From: Enterobacter cloacae
GTDB taxonomy: Bacteria; Pseudomonadota; Gammaproteobacteria; Enterobacterales; Enterobacteriaceae
NCBI RefSeq assembly: GCF_013375935.1
Contig: NZ_CP056117.1
Location: forward strand, 3,410,001-3,474,000
DNA length: 64,000 bases
Direction of reading: 5' to 3'
Below, in pieces: positions 4,100-10,068 of the stretch. The notes beneath the pieces were generated by a model. It searched no databases. It was given only the letters and a program-made list of their open reading frames with translations, and was not told where the DNA came from. The position numbers and the translations under genes were made by a program. Position 1 is the first letter of the stretch. Every line of letters begins with the position of its first letter.

Positions 4100-5275
4100 A
4101 TGAAAAAGACAATTTTTTCGTTGGCGCTTGGCACCTTTGGCCTGGGGATGGCTGAATTTGGCATCATGGGCGTGCTGACAGAGCTTGCGCATGACACGGG
4201 AATTTCTATTCCCTCCGCCGGGAATATGATTTCGTTTTACGCCTTTGGCGTAGTCATCGGCGCGCCGATTGTGGCGCTGTTCTCCGGCAAATTCTCCCTT
4301 AAAACAACGCTGCTGTTTCTGATGGCGATGTGCGTCGTCGGTAATGCTCTGTTTACTTTCTCAACGTCCTATGTCGGGCTGGCGGCGGGGCGGTTAATCT
4401 CTGGCTTCCCTCATGGCGCGATTTTCGGCGTGGGGGCGATCGTCCTGTCGAAGATCGCACCGCCGGGAAAGGTGACGGTTGCCGTCGCCGGGATGATTGC
4501 CGGGATGACCGTAGCCAATCTGCTGGGCGTACCGCTGGGAACCTGGCTTGGGCACGAGTTTAGCTGGCGTTACACCTTCTTTTTAATTGCGGTGTTTGAC
4601 GCGCTGGTGATCCTGTCGGTCCTGCTGTGGGTGCCAGATATACGCGACACATCAGCCACCCGGCTGACGGAACAATTTCGCTTCCTGAAGAAACCGGAGC
4701 CGTGGCTCATTTTTGCCGCCACGATGTTCGGCAACGCCGGCGTGTTTGCCTGGTTTAGCTTCGTAAAGCCGTTTATGGTCAACGTGTCAGGCTTCTCTGA
4801 GGGGGTAATGACCGCGATCATGATGCTGATGGGGCTGGGCATGGTGCTGGGTAATATGCTCAGCGGAAAATTATCCGCGCGCTTTAGCCCCTTGCGCATT
4901 GCGGCCACCACCGACCTGGTGATTGTGGCGTCGCTGCTAGCGCTGTTCGCTTTTGGCGAACTGAAAACCGCTTCGCTGGTGATGGGATTCGTCTGCTGCG
5001 CCGGGCTGTTTGCGCTCTCTGCGCCGCTGCAAATTCTGCTGCTGCAAAATGCGAAAGGTGGCGAGATGCTGGGGGCGGCAGGCGGGCAGATGGCGTTTAA
5101 TCTCGGCAGTGCAATTGGCGCATATTTTGGCGGAATGACGATCGTTCTCGGCTTCAGCTGGAGCTACGTCACGCTTCCGGCCGCGATCTTGTCTTTCTCG
5201 GCGATGACCTCGCTGCTATTGTATGGACATTTATGTGCCAAAAAGCGCCAGGCCAACGCCCGGGCGCTGGCCTGA
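4100..5275 (+). CDS. araJ: AraJ-like major facilitator transporter
   Basis: Twelve-helix drug:H+ antiporter family (DHA1) protein of 391 residues, closely matching E. coli AraJ (394) along its whole length. Examples are the N-terminus MKKTIFSLALGTFGLGMAEF, FPHGAIFGVGAIVLSK in helix IV and QILLLQNAKGGEMLGAAGGQ late in the protein. AraJ is arabinose-induced in E. coli, where its substrate is uncertain. No AraC site was identified here and the gene is at a different locus from E. coli araJ, so regulation by arabinose is unproven. The start at 4100 was chosen by alignment with the family over a longer frame from 3848. The preceding ribosome site is weak. Confidence 0.88.
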   Translation: MKKTIFSLALGTFGLGMAEFGIMGVLTELAHDTGISIPSAGNMISFYAFGVVIGAPIVALFSGKFSLKTTLLFLMAMCVVGNALFTFSTSYVGLAAGRLISGFPHGAIFGVGAIVLSKIAPPGKVTVAVAGMIAGMTVANLLGVPLGTWLGHEFSWRYTFFLIAVFDALVILSVLLWVPDIRDTSATRLTEQFRFLKKPEPWLIFAATMFGNAGVFAWFSFVKPFMVNVSGFSEGVMTAIMMLMGLGMVLGNMLSGKLSARFSPLRIAATTDLVIVASLLALFAFGELKTASLVMGFVCCAGLFALSAPLQILLLQNAKGGEMLGAAGGQMAFNLGSAIGAYFGGMTIVLGFSWSYVTLPAAILSFSAMTSLLLYGHLCAKKRQANARALA

Positions 5276-6553: not shown

Positions 6554-8263
6554 TTACAGCCGGGCTTCTATCTCCTCAATCTCTTTTCGCCACTGCGCCT
6601 GCAGCTGCGGCTTCTGATGTTTTGGCTTTCGCGCCAGGTCCTCTTCCAGCAGCGCTTCAAGCGCGACCAGGCGTTCGAGCAGATCGTCAGGCTGAAAAGG
6701 TTGCGCCCTGGACGCGGCCGTCGACGCCGCTTGTGCAACCGGCTCAGTGCCTTCACGCAGCCGGTCGAACACCGCCTCCGCGTCGTGCCATTCGCTCAGC
6801 CTGCCGTCCTCAATCAGCCAGAAACGGTTACAGCTTCGGCTAATCAGATGACGGTCGTGGCTTACCAGCAGAATGCCGCCTTCAAACCGTTGCAGGGTTT
6901 CGGCCAGAGCGTCTTTGCCTTCCATATCCAGATGGTTTGTTGGCTCATCCAGCATCAGCAGGCTATAGCGGGCAAGCGTCAGGCCGACAAACAGCAGGCG
7001 CGAACGCTCGCCACCGCTCAGCGTACTGACTTTCTGCCCGTGACGCGCCCACGGGAAACCGGCGCTGATAAGCGCCATTTTGCGGGTCTGCGGATCGGGC
7101 GAGAAAGGTTCCAGCGCATCAAGCAGCGCCGCATCGTCCGGCAGCTGGTGCAGCGTCTGGTCGTAGTAGCCGGGCGAGACGCGCGGATGACGCTTAAGCC
7201 CGTCATCTGAGATATCGTCACGAAAATGTCGCCAGATAAGCTTCATCAGCGACGATTTACCGCAGCCGTTACGACCCACAACTGCAACGCGGTCGCCGCT
7301 TTTTAGCCGCGCGCTGTCAATCGTAAACAGATCCGGCAGGCCCGGCGCAGGGGGCACGCCGAGGTTGGTGATTTCAAGCAGGCGGTCGGCCCGCAGCGCG
7401 TCCCCGCGCAGGGTTAAGGTCCACTGGCTGCCCTCCGTCAGTTCCGTCTGATTATCCTTCAGCCGTTCGACCTGTTTTTCCATCTGCTTCGCCTTACGGG
7501 CGAGATCTTCGTTGTCGTAGACCTTGCCCCAGGTCGCCAGCCGCTTCGCGCTGGCCGTTACGCGGTCGATCTCCTTTTGCTCCGCCTTATGGCGCTGCGC
7601 GTCGCTTTCATCCTTCGCATCCAGCGCCTTGCGTGCCGCCGTGCAGGGAAGGGCAAAGTAGTGCAGCGTCTTATCGCGCAGGATCCAGCTGCCGTTGGTC
7701 ACCGCGTCCAGCAGCTGCCGGTCGTGTGAGACAAGAACAAAGCTGCCGGACCAGTTCTGTAAAAACTGCTCCAGCCAGAGCAGGGTTGGCAGGTCAAGGT
7801 GGTTGCTCGGTTCGTCCAGCAGCAGCAGATCCGGATCGCCAATCAGCGCTCGCGCCAGCAGTAAACGCGTGTGCTGGCCGCCGCTCAGCGTAGCGGATTG
7901 CAGCGCCGTTTCCTGCGGCGTGAAGCCCATGCCTGCCAGCAGCGTTTCCGCTTTCCAGCGCAGGCTGTCGCGCTCGCCGGCCGGCAGCTGAGCCAGCACA
8001 GCATCCAGCATGGTCAGGGGATAAACAGCCTCCGGCAGGTGCTGTTCCACGCGCGCCATCAGACAATGACCCGCAAGAGAAACCGTTCCGGCCGCAGGAA
8101 GTTGCGTTCCGTCGATAACTTTGAGCAGCGTGCTTTTGCCGCAGCCGTTATCGCCCAGCAGACCAAGGCGGTCGCCTTTTTTCAGCGTAAAGGAGAGAGA
8201 GTCGAAGAGCGTGCCAAACGCTGTATCAACGCGTAGTGAATGTGCAGTGAGTAAAGTGCTCAT
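6554..8263 (-). CDS. ABC-F family ATPase
   Basis: Soluble twin-ATPase of the ABC-F family. Such proteins bind the ribosomal E site and act in translation control or antibiotic resistance; they are not transporters. The 569-residue product has two ABC cassettes. The first has Walker A GDNGCGKST (residues 37-45), signature LSGGQHTRL and Walker B LLLLDEPSNHLD. The second has GRNGCGKSS, LSGGERSRL and LLMLDEPTNHLD. A charged linker rich in Lys/Glu lies between them (about residues 205-290), and the C-terminus is coiled-coil-like. Length and termini do not fit the four standard enteric members as I remember them (EttA 555, Uup 635, YbiT 530, YheS 637), so it appears to be an additional lineage. It is monocistronic, has a terminator, and is preceded by a leader-peptide attenuator. 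That arrangement recalls inducible ribosome-protection genes, but antibiotic resistance is inference only. Confidence 0.85.
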   Translation of the reverse strand: MSTLLTAHSLRVDTAFGTLFDSLSFTLKKGDRLGLLGDNGCGKSTLLKVIDGTQLPAAGTVSLAGHCLMARVEQHLPEAVYPLTMLDAVLAQLPAGERDSLRWKAETLLAGMGFTPQETALQSATLSGGQHTRLLLARALIGDPDLLLLDEPSNHLDLPTLLWLEQFLQNWSGSFVLVSHDRQLLDAVTNGSWILRDKTLHYFALPCTAARKALDAKDESDAQRHKAEQKEIDRVTASAKRLATWGKVYDNEDLARKAKQMEKQVERLKDNQTELTEGSQWTLTLRGDALRADRLLEITNLGVPPAPGLPDLFTIDSARLKSGDRVAVVGRNGCGKSSLMKLIWRHFRDDISDDGLKRHPRVSPGYYDQTLHQLPDDAALLDALEPFSPDPQTRKMALISAGFPWARHGQKVSTLSGGERSRLLFVGLTLARYSLLMLDEPTNHLDMEGKDALAETLQRFEGGILLVSHDRHLISRSCNRFWLIEDGRLSEWHDAEAVFDRLREGTEPVAQAASTAASRAQPFQPDDLLERLVALEALLEEDLARKPKHQKPQLQAQWRKEIEEIEARL

Positions 8264-8285
8264 TGTTGCTTACCCAAGAGTTACA

Positions 8286-8410
8286 GGCATGGTTATGCCT
8301 CGTCAAACATCGCTGACGATAACTCAGTAAGCCCGAGAGAAGGGATTTAAGGGGGTGGTGGCTTCGCTCAAGCAGAAGTTATCGCAGCACGATACCGATA
8401 ACGCTTGAGC
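8286..8410 (-). promoter_or_regulatory. Leader RNA with mutually exclusive hairpins (putative attenuator) upstream of the ABC-F gene
   Basis: Read on the minus strand. GCTCAAGC (8410-8403) pairs with GCTTGAGC (8373-8366), enclosing an inner stem TTATCG (8401-8396)/CGATAA (8384-8379) with an 11-base loop. The leader-peptide stop codon lies in the inner stem. An alternative pairing joins GCTGCGATAACT (8388-8377) to AGTTATCG-T-CAGC (8324-8312), 12 pairs with one bulged base, and would open the first hairpin. A third small hairpin, GGCAT-AACC-ATGCC (8299-8286), precedes the ABC-F start. A ribosome stalled on the leader ORF would select between these folds, the logic of translational or transcriptional attenuation. 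The folds are visible in the sequence; the regulation is inferred. Confidence 0.6.
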
Positions 8411-8462
8411 TGATGCGATCGCCAAGAGTATGTGAAAAATTAAAAATTTCACAATACAGCAT
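8379..8462 (-). CDS. Leader peptide of the ABC-F gene, 27 residues
   Basis: A short ORF read directly from the sequence. ATG at 8462 is preceded by AAGGAGG at an ideal seven bases, one of the strongest ribosome sites in this region, and the frame ends with TAA at 8381-8379. The peptide begins MLYCEIFNFSHTLGDRIS and ends SVIGIVLR. Its last third is encoded by the 5' arm and loop of the hairpin at 8366-8410. It lies about 35 bases downstream of a near-consensus promoter and 115 bases upstream of the ABC-F start. It is most simply a stalling or leader peptide that regulates the ATPase gene, not a functional protein in itself. I do not recognise the sequence. Confidence 0.65.
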   Translation of the reverse strand: MLYCEIFNFSHTLGDRISSSVIGIVLR

Positions 8463-8503
8463 AATTGGCCTCCTTATATGTTATGAGTTTGTTGGTAACT
8501 TTC

Positions 8504-8532
8504 ACTATACAACTTTTTTAAGTGTATACCAA
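8504..8532 (-). promoter_or_regulatory. Sigma-70 promoter for leader peptide and ABC-F gene
   Basis: On the minus strand TTGGTA (8532-8527) and TATAGT (8509-8504) are separated by exactly 17 bases. The predicted start of transcription is near 8497, about 35 bases before the leader ATG. Confidence 0.65.
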
Positions 8533-8538
8533 GCAGAG

Positions 8539-8555
8539 GGGCAGCATTGCTGCCC
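8539..8555. repeat. Short perfect hairpin GGGCAGC-ATT-GCTGCCC
   Basis: A 7-bp perfect inverted repeat with a 3-base loop between hcp and the ABC-F promoter. It may end hcp transcription, but no T-tract follows on the minus strand. Confidence 0.35.
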
Positions 8556-8670
8556 AGGATTATCTTTTCCGTATAAGAAAATACAGGGCTAGTGTGGGAT
8601 CTGACTCAATACAAGGAGTACCACTTTCATTAATGGGCAATCATACATTTTCATTTTCGCCCCTTCGTCA

Positions 8671-9150
8671 TCATGCACAACAACGATCGTTCCATGAGTC
8701 ACGATAAATAATATTACCTTCCGTATACTTCCAGGTAATCGCTTCATAACGCAGTTCGAGCGTTTCAAGGTGAGTACTGCTTATACCTTTTGGAGACAGG
8801 TACGGTGCAACTGTTGTGAACTTGACGTTTTCCAGAATGATATTGAAATACTCTGCCTCAATGCCTGATTCCAGAATACGGTACATTTTAATCGTCGCCT
8901 TCTTCATGGTTCGGCCTTCACAGACAGCGCGGTACAAAAGTGGTGTTGTTTGATCAAACTCCTTCACTATTGTGATAGGGCGATGGACACGCGTGCCTGT
9001 CAGTTTTCCCCAGCTTGGATCTACTGGGATAGTGACGCCGTGAGAGAACGATTTTAACTCGATAGACCCCAGTCGAAGTGGCATAAGGCAACTGCCAACA
9101 ATCGGCGAACCATTTTCATCTTCAAGCCATAAGTGTGCGGGTGTAGACAT
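8671..9150 (-). CDS. hcp: Hcp family type VI secretion tube protein (orphan)
   Basis: Forms the hexameric inner tube that is expelled by the type VI secretion system and can carry effectors in its lumen. The 159-residue product matches the Hcp1 family. It starts MSTPAHLWLEDENGSPIVGS, has KLTGTRVHRPITIVKEFD (about residue 50), MKKATIKMYRI, EAEYFNIILENVKF and the C-terminal block ETLELRYEAITWKYTEGNII. The start has AAGGA upstream. No other T6SS core gene is in the window, so this is an orphan hcp. It is the last gene of a small AT-rich unit whose first element is a second, truncated hcp. Confidence 0.9.
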   Translation of the reverse strand: MSTPAHLWLEDENGSPIVGSCLMPLRLGSIELKSFSHGVTIPVDPSWGKLTGTRVHRPITIVKEFDQTTPLLYRAVCEGRTMKKATIKMYRILESGIEAEYFNIILENVKFTTVAPYLSPKGISSTHLETLELRYEAITWKYTEGNIIYRDSWNDRCCA

Positions 9151-9184
9151 AATATTTCCTTATAAATAAGATAGCCTTTGATGG

Positions 9185-9379
9185 CTACCATTTGACATAT
9201 CGATAAAAGACAACGATCACGAAAATGCAGAATATGGGAACAGGCCATATCGGTCCATCTGGGAAAAATTGGAAAAATACAACTGCAAATGCAAGTGTCA
9301 ATAAGGCAGGGCCGTACATCGATATCAATGACCTGAATATCCGCCTGAAAACCCGTTTAATAAGAATCATCATGTTCAT
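9185..9379 (-). CDS. Small membrane protein, candidate immunity protein
   Basis: A 64-residue protein with basic N-terminus (ILIKRVFRRIFRS) and two hydrophobic segments (about residues 20-37 and 43-60) split by a Pro-rich turn (FFPDGPIWPVP). The start ATG at 9379 overlaps the stop of the preceding cargo gene in a TGATG arrangement, so the two are translationally coupled. hcp follows 34 bases later. I do not recognise the family. Tight coupling to a putative effector and membrane location fit an immunity protein against a membrane-active toxin, but this is inference from context. Confidence 0.5.
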   Translation of the reverse strand: MNMMILIKRVFRRIFRSLISMYGPALLTLAFAVVFFQFFPDGPIWPVPIFCIFVIVVFYRYVKW

Positions 9380-10068
9380 CAAATCAGCCTTCTGATGATA
9401 TCTGCAATTTCATCTTCCGACCCCCATTGTGCTTTAAACGCCCCAGCTCGTTCAAACAATGGTTCTATCAGGAAGTACATCATTTCCAATTCTTGTGCAT
9501 ATAACGCCGAGTAGTAGTCTGGGTAGGTTATATGAAGGCGACTGGCGCTATCTGCCGCTTTCTGCACAACGCCATTTATGCCAATAATCCCAACAAATCC
9601 GCCTGCACTTCGTCCTGTCAGTACACTAAGTTCAAGACTTAAACTCATGCCCGCGGCAACAAATGAAGCTGTTGCTAAAGCAAATCCTGCGTTTGTAAGT
9701 GAACTTGCGGCAATATGAATATTTACTGCCATTAGCAAATGTTTGATATGCTCTAGCTGATCGGAAGTTTTGTGCCGGAATACTTCTTCAAAATAGATTT
9801 TGAGCATTTCATACACAACATCTGTATGCCATATAATATGATAAACCCCTTTGGTAAATCGGATGTCTTCGGACTTTTGTTTCTGGCATACGTCCTGATA
9901 TTCATCTGTAAAGCATGACGTATAATAGAGTGCGCGCGTTGCACCGGCGCCGATCGTTTCAATCTGATTTGTTAAGGCTTTTCCTACGCCTGTAAATGCA
10001 TGGTCGAGTTTTAATGCAAGGATGTTATTCGCCTGCAAATAACGTATTACTTCATTGCTGTAGTACAT
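9379..10068 (-). CDS. Unknown protein in an hcp-linked cargo position, candidate type VI effector
   Basis: A 229-residue protein that I do not recognise. The N-terminal half is mixed alpha-helical. Residues about 108-170 form a long, glycine/alanine-rich hydrophobic stretch (for example AASSLTNAGFALATASFVAA and GRSAGGFVGIIGINGVV) that could form two membrane-inserting hairpins. The C-terminus is amphipathic and acidic. AAGGAG precedes the ATG. It lies between an hcp fragment and an intact hcp and is coupled to a tiny membrane protein. In T6SS biology such a position usually holds an effector with its immunity gene, and the hydrophobic core would fit a membrane-depolarising toxin. No catalytic motif was seen. 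Confidence 0.5.
   Translation of the reverse strand: MYYSNEVIRYLQANNILALKLDHAFTGVGKALTNQIETIGAGATRALYYTSCFTDEYQDVCQKQKSEDIRFTKGVYHIIWHTDVVYEMLKIYFEEVFRHKTSDQLEHIKHLLMAVNIHIAASSLTNAGFALATASFVAAGMSLSLELSVLTGRSAGGFVGIIGINGVVQKAADSASRLHITYPDYYSALYAQELEMMYFLIEPLFERAGAFKAQWGSEDEIADIIRRLI

Follow-up and report, generated by a model that had tools for sequence, protein, structure and literature searches.

A conserved leader peptide and exclusive RNA folds suggest translational attenuation of an ABC-F gene in Enterobacter cloacae and its relatives

How is an ABC-F ATPase gene controlled that lies behind a short leader open reading frame (ORF) and an RNA with two ways of folding? The question is raised by a locus of Enterobacter cloacae (contig NZ_CP056117.1, assembly GCF_013375935.1, positions 3,410,001 to 3,474,000); this whole stretch of 64,000 nucleotides (nt) is the window to which all positions refer (Table 1). 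The initial annotation had seen in the locus the architecture of ribosome-stalling attenuators that precede erm and resistance ABC-F genes. Judged from sequence comparison, this is supported, as the leader frame is conserved and covariation is present. We conclude that the leader is very probably a ribosome-controlled attenuator. A ribosome-controlled translational attenuator of the ABC-F gene is the best explanation of the locus as a whole, and we consider it likely.

An orthologue of the ABC-F protein (55-100% identity) was found in 79 of 295 genomes sampled from the Enterobacteriaceae, and a leader ORF with a Shine-Dalgarno sequence lies upstream of it in all 79 loci. Two further genomes of the family encode relatives with 42-45% identity (L078 and L079); they were excluded from the 79 and kept out of the leader set, the protein start being unmatched in L078 and the upstream sequence different in L079. 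The annotated leader of 27 codons with its AAGGAGG site is present, and its frame is retained in relatives that keep the gene: it is intact in 78 of the 79 loci, and has 28 codons in one of these (L050); in the remaining one (L030) codon 24 has lost one nt, which shifts the frame. Vibrionaceae-type leaders have 26-29 codons. Two natural frameshifts of the leader (L030/L168 and L206) lie 3' of codon 20, beyond the predicted stall. The annotated promoter is also present, but the scan found one TTGGTA-17-TATAGT-like site against a mean of 1.1 in shuffled sequences, so that taken alone the promoter is weak. At least 60 of 77 loci have a TAYANT motif that starts 45-50 nt 5' of the leader ATG. Two other frames were considered and rejected. 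One is a further upstream ORF (MPVTLG in the window) whose stop is the TAA within GTAAGC; it is not conserved, as just 29 of 77 loci have an in-frame ATG, the ORF being 6 codons long in 26 of the 29. The other, a 42-residue GTG frame over the leader region, is open across 27 codons in 46 of 70 loci.

Selection on the leader appears to act on two levels. The ratio of nonsynonymous to synonymous differences (pN/pS; point estimates from 116 close pairs among 70 sequences) is 0.54 in the leader frame over codons 2-17, where the other frames give 0.89 and 1.35. It is 0.48 over codons 13-17. Over codons 18-27 it rises to 4.04. Thus, the amino-acid constraint ends about at the predicted halt, and beyond this point it is the RNA that is conserved. 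The 69 distinct leaders have F (43), L (21), Y (4) or I (1) at position 13 and G (60) or S (9) at position 14. Sequence comparison therefore points to a conserved leader ORF under coding constraint, as expected of a translational attenuator. It also bears on the idea that this is a ligand- or protein-binding RNA (a riboswitch or regulator site) and the ORF a mere bystander. The strong secondary structure and the branched 3' domain would suit such an RNA, yet length, start, Shine-Dalgarno sequence and frame of the ORF are conserved, the amino-acid constraint lies ahead of the predicted stall site, and no Rfam riboswitch or leader matches: there was no match in the window at the gathering threshold, and a lax search of 8240-8600 returned a single weak snoRNA match on the opposite strand (E 4.5). 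We regard this explanation as highly improbable.

Four RNA segments can pair in exclusive ways, either 1:2 together with 3:4, or 2:3 with 1:4. The two-part hairpin annotated at the 3' end of the leader is confirmed, with arms at 8396-8410 and 8366-8384. A competitor of its 3' arm had been placed at 8312-8324 with 12 pairs; the competitor is real, but it comprises 11 pairs and a single bulged base at 8312-8323. As a whole, the helix that competes is longer than annotated, joining 8362-8388 to 8312-8342 by 24 pairs. The notion of two exclusive folds is borne out, and the folds are conserved in relatives. Pairs changed on both sides occur in 1:2, 3:4, 2:3 and 1:4, as the proposed covariation check asked, with some measures not above shuffles. 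Fold I combines 1:2 with a branched 3:4 structure (8268-8332) that carries two hairpins and closes the ABC-F start; segment 1 can pair with the same region. The initial annotation contained neither the branched structure nor this pairing of segment 1. This fold is paired in 92.6% of the alignment cells, with 9 pairs changed on both sides (32 sequences; slid controls 26.5-37.0%). Fold II is the 24-pair 2:3 hairpin, paired in 94.4% of the cells with 4 pairs changed on both sides in the 75 family sequences that remained when identical ones among 77 loci were removed (alignment A1). A wider set of 21 sequences from several families has 7 of the 24 pairs changed on both sides, a value reached by 0 of 500 shuffles, and slid controls for fold I and both fold II sets are paired to 26-50%. 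The 1:4 helix is paired to 93.8%, both sides being changed in 4 pairs and 11 cells, and is weaker in the wider set (87.4%). Among the 12 single-sequence minimum-energy folds listed, five (L004, L010, L020, L044, L061) show 2:3 with 1:4 and the rest, including the window, show 3:4. Vibrio-type leaders have a predicted hairpin of unlike sequence at the position of P0, the hairpin within the leader ORF.

A strictly conserved serine invites a different reading, namely an amino-acid or metabolite attenuator in which the ribosome halts at particular codons under starvation, or a small molecule binds together with the nascent peptide. All 69 distinct leaders have Ser19 (TCA in 74 of 75), serine is common at positions 18 and 20, and the peptide constraint over codons 2-17 would fit as well. 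However, codons 18-27 evolve under RNA constraint, so that the serine codons are explained by segment 1. Moreover, no run of a single regulatory codon is seen ahead of the predicted induction region (codons 14-22), and a translation factor would in our judgement be an unusual target for amino-acid control. We therefore consider an amino-acid or metabolite attenuator improbable.

Computational support for a ribosome-controlled attenuator comes from the cost of opening the ABC-F start. This cost was computed for each leader codon by folding only the RNA past the front edge of the ribosome, taken as +16 from the P site, in 76 loci (the 77 without L030, which was left out of the folding table and the models owing to its deletion). 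The median is 7.1-7.5 kcal/mol with no ribosome or with a ribosome at codons 1-13, and 3.8-4.9 kcal/mol with a ribosome at codons 14-22, the minimum lying at codons 17-18. For the window sequence the lowest value, 5.4 kcal/mol, is reached at codons 16-17, and past codon 22 the cost is fully restored (8.8-10.7 kcal/mol). A control with 19 of these 76 loci gives a mean drop in cost of 3.45 kcal/mol from codon 10 to codon 17, the lowest being 0.19, whereas the mean for 95 dinucleotide shuffles is 0.10; the drop exceeds 1 kcal/mol in 65 of all 76 loci. By computation, exclusive helices of which one closes the target start are thus present, the effect being weak in 11 of the 76 loci.

These values suggest how the switch might work. 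When the leader is empty or read normally, segment 3 is predicted to close segment 4, keeping the ABC-F start in an OFF state, and segment 1 is predicted to be able to close segment 4 too. A ribosome halted near codons 16-18 would mask segment 1 and leave segment 2 free; 2:3 would then form and the ABC-F start would open (ON). The nascent peptide of codons 2-17 may be what halts a ribosome that bears a drug at the peptidyl-transferase centre or in the exit tunnel. The ABC-F protein would thereby be made when protection is needed, and would relieve the halted ribosome. More speculatively, P0 may re-form behind the halted ribosome, steadying it or delaying the next one, because with usual footprint sizes P0 ends about at the rear of the ribosome.

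Several results weigh against this picture of a ribosome-controlled switch. Past codon 22 the median opening cost recovers only in part (5.0-6.3 kcal/mol), and 11 of the 76 loci, mainly from more distant lineages, show a drop of no more than 1 kcal/mol between codons 10 and 17. Not all measures of covariation exceed chance. Of 500 shuffles each, 418 reach the value for additional pair types in fold I, 124 the 2:3 covariation score in the family set, 234 the number of pairs changed in P0, and 113 the number changed in 1:4 in the wider set. Pairing in the inner half of 1:2 amounts to 84% (family set) and 73% (wider set). Some of the cells counted as unpaired may reflect misalignment, as the sequences were aligned with plain MAFFT. 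The unaided RNAalifold consensus, which differs in part, does not give the 3:4 helix in full and instead pairs the leader Shine-Dalgarno sequence (GGAGG, 8469-8475) with CCTTC of segment 3. On the side of the peptide, frame +1 also has a low pN/pS over codons 18-27 (0.33; 8379-8411), R16 of the family leaders is not retained in vibrios, and E5 and S10 change jointly to K and L in 4 sequences (L020, L043, L044, L047) with the P0 pair preserved. Because these changes coincide and keep the pair, part of the apparent peptide conservation is RNA-driven. Finally, one leader upstream of an ABC-F gene (L109) has a premature stop.

Some side observations belong here. Frame +1 is not open in every locus over codons 18-27, and its low pN/pS is perhaps a side effect of RNA pairing. 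Pairing of the leader Shine-Dalgarno sequence with segment 3 would enable segment 3 to damp leader translation as well. L109 is recorded as 'Pseudomonas sp. T1-3-2 plasmid p1' (about 4282-4400), where an extra T creates the early stop and the ABC-F start is retained; its sequence looks Pantoea-like, and the record name may be wrong.

The level of control is a separate matter. Transcription attenuation or premature Rho-dependent termination could replace translational control, and Gram-positive bacteria have other ABC-F genes that are under transcription attenuation, as far as the available text of the reports goes (PMC10314930, PMC10201436). Against this, a scan of the window sequence found 0 terminator-like sites in 8100-8700, and the sequences listed show no T run from the 3:4 structure to the start codon. 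Termination of either kind is in our view an improbable explanation, and the lack of a terminator-like site in the window indicates that attenuation probably acts on translation.

What kind of protein would be switched on? The predicted product has two ABC domains and a long helical linker (helices 207-248 and 252-270), and it resembles solved ABC-F structures; the best matches of the structure model (mean predicted local distance difference test score 88) are VmlR2, human ABCF1, PoxtA, YbiT and YheS. The top NCBIfam model, ribosomal-protection ABC-F NF000355, scores 313.4 bits, which is under the curated cut-off of 380 bits for this antibiotic-resistance model. By its species distribution, namely Vibrio, Enterobacter, Klebsiella, Serratia and Citrobacter and not Escherichia, the gene fits subfamily PAF1. 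The occurrence of a predicted stall-sensing switch in all 79 family carriers suggests that the gene serves ribosomes in trouble.

We infer a stall, a trigger and a role in resistance, and with them the induction by drug or stress that the initial annotation suggested. We lean slightly towards a ribosome-targeting antibiotic or a natural ribosome toxin as the trigger. A drug-free alternative is homeostasis, in which the leader peptide is hard to translate and eased by the ABC-F protein, so that scarcity of the protein causes a halt and more of it is made. The SecM-SecA pair follows a similar logic. Such autoregulation would fit the joint occurrence of leader and gene in all 79 carriers among 295 genomes, as for a dedicated housekeeping pair. 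Parts of two reports point the same way: ABC-F proteins are described to act on ribosome pausing (the EttA paper, PMC11282234), and MsrD suppresses its own leader-mediated induction (PMC10314930). On the other hand, the leaders listed have no proline run, and in the available part of the 2019 survey by Murina et al. PAF1 is listed among the predicted resistance ABCFs (PMC6723617). Autoregulation is also compatible with drug sensing rather than exclusive of it. We take it as a serious rival but think it unlikely, and drug induction seems likelier. Tentatively, and with less than even confidence, we propose that PAF1 is an intrinsic inducible ribosome-protection factor and its leader an order-wide antibiotic sensor in Klebsiella, Enterobacter, Serratia and Vibrio, with a 26-29-residue arrest peptide unlike known attenuators, a halt just past the F-G motif aided by P0, and a start doubly locked by 3:4 or 1:4.

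Erm-type translational attenuators such as that of ermC consist of a leader ORF and exclusive folds with a masked ribosome-binding site that is opened by a stalled ribosome. The present locus shares with ermC the leader ORF, the 1:2/3:4 versus 2:3 folds and the masked ribosome-binding site, and opening by a stall is predicted here. It differs from ermC in its target, an ABC-F gene kept in several families of a Gram-negative order, and in its leader, which has 27 codons, a mid-ORF halt window, a possible 1:4 lock and P0 inside the ORF. Closer in target are CplR, VmlR, VmlR2 and LsaA (PMC10201436) and MsrD (PMC10314930), where, according to the accessible parts of these papers, an ABC-F gene also follows an upstream ORF, and stalling of a ribosome on that ORF allows the gene to be expressed; for CplR, attenuation is both translational and transcriptional (PMC10201436). 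The upstream ORFs of these known ABC-F attenuators are tiny, with MR[I/M], MIN, MK[L/Q] and MAGN as consensus (PMC10201436) and MYLIFM for MsrDL (PMC10314930); several of them gate a transcription terminator, and the hosts are Gram-positive. Here, in contrast, the ORF is long, no terminator-like site was found in 8100-8700, and the hosts are Gram-negative. A Gram-negative upstream ORF is represented by ToiL of topAI in E. coli, which in the text available senses ribosome-targeting antibiotics and controls translation (PMC12121999). Compared by description only, ToiL differs from the present leader in controlling a toxin-antitoxin operon (PMC12121999).

No published description of the leader was found in the open literature, covering no preprints and few subscription papers. 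To that extent the claim that it is undescribed in enterics holds, and on the gene only the 2019 PAF1 prediction came up, in the part of the source available (PMC6723617). The words leader and attenuation occur 0 times in the main text of that survey, which was also the only paper found on PAF1 together with ABCF and Vibrio. The same survey, in its accessible part, flagged the gene as a possible resistance factor in several pathogens (PMC6723617). If it is true that drugs induce the gene, this would be an uncharted inducible ribosome-protection system in clinically important Gram-negatives, apparently missing from E. coli, the usual model. The leader would make a simple reporter for identifying the drug or condition concerned.

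How far do leader and gene travel together? A covariance model spanning leader codon 17 to the ABC-F start, with 32 of the 79 carriers in it (R1, built from 32 sequences chosen out of 73), picks out the 79 orthologue-carrying genomes and matches none of the other 216 of 295. Order-wide, model R2 matches 30 of 394 genomes; 12 of these belong to three families other than the Enterobacteriaceae, and 3 of the 12 contributed to the model. The leader ORF and the ABC-F gene are present in each of the five genomes inspected among these 12. Class-wide, 2 of 369 genomes match, the window's own genome and a marginal one (L242; 27 bits, E 8.8e-4) that was judged a chance match from its score and from visual inspection. 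Scanning named genomes by pattern yielded at least 117 stretches, of which 107 hold leader ORF and ABC-F start by the pattern rules. Two end before the gene and one before the leader, four (L109, L119, L168, L206) have the gene and no leader ORF by the pattern rule, and three with neither leader nor ABC-F by these rules (L140, L159, L187) were dropped as chance. Carriers among the matches listed include Klebsiella pneumoniae ATCC 13883, Enterobacter, Citrobacter, Serratia, Pantoea, Providencia, Photorhabdus, Vibrio and Photobacterium. A DNA search of E. coli found no place that covers 80% of the gene, the 10 matches listed being yheS or ybiT, and no match to the leader.

Table 1. Positions of the features of the leader and the ABC-F gene in the window
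Feature	Position	Strand	Remarks
-35-like hexamer TTGGTA	8527..8532	(-)	promoter scan, not above shuffles
-10-like hexamer TATAGT, 17 nt from -35	8504..8509	(-)	promoter scan
Shine-Dalgarno AAGGAGG of leader ORF	8469..8475	(-)	AGGAG-type site in 77/77 loci; GGAGG in two further loci
Leader ORF, 27 codons + TAA, MLYCEIFNFSHTLGDRISSSVIGIVLR	8379..8462	(-)	27 codons exactly in 77/79 family loci
P0, hairpin within leader ORF, codons 4-11	8432..8452	(-)	paired in 90.2% of cells; both sides changed in 23 cells
Predicted induction window, codons 14-22	8397-8423	(-)	thermodynamic model
Predicted stall position, codons 16-18	8409..8417	(-)	thermodynamic model, shuffle control
Segment 1 (5' arm)	8396..8410	(-)	partner segment 2 or segment 4
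Segment 2 (3' arm; includes leader stop codon)	8362..8388	(-)	partner segment 1 or segment 3
Segment 3	8312..8342	(-)	partner segment 2, or via 8320-8332 segment 4
Hairpin C1 (CGTCA/TGACG), within 3:4 structure	8301..8318	(-)	
Hairpin C2 (AGGCAT/ATGCCT), within 3:4 structure	8285..8300	(-)	strong covariation
Segment 4 (TAACTCTTGGGTAAGC), ribosome-binding region of ABC-F gene	8268..8283	(-)	
ABC-F ATPase gene, 569 residues	6554..8263	(-)	fits subfamily PAF1 by distribution

Some observations concern the surroundings of the gene. Records of large plasmids from Rahnella, Pantoea and Ewingella also list the orthologue, with 61-63% identity, so that the gene is not always chromosomal. A record named Chryseobacterium sp. 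18061 (L118) carries an Enterobacteriaceae-type leader with the ABC-F gene and is probably misnamed or contaminated. A 45%-identical ABC-F relative without this leader (L092, 291-4706) adjoins by eye an MFS-like transporter and two oxygenase-like ORFs, possibly a biosynthetic cluster with self-protection. The upstream neighbours in the window, also on the minus strand, are an Hcp/TssD gene (8671-9150), followed by an ORF for a membrane-type protein of 65 residues (9185-9382, by eye) and a 229-residue protein with no NCBIfam match (9379-10068). The whole region 8671-10068, between the ABC-F gene and an ORF that by eye is malic-enzyme-like, resembles a small island of type VI secretion cargo.
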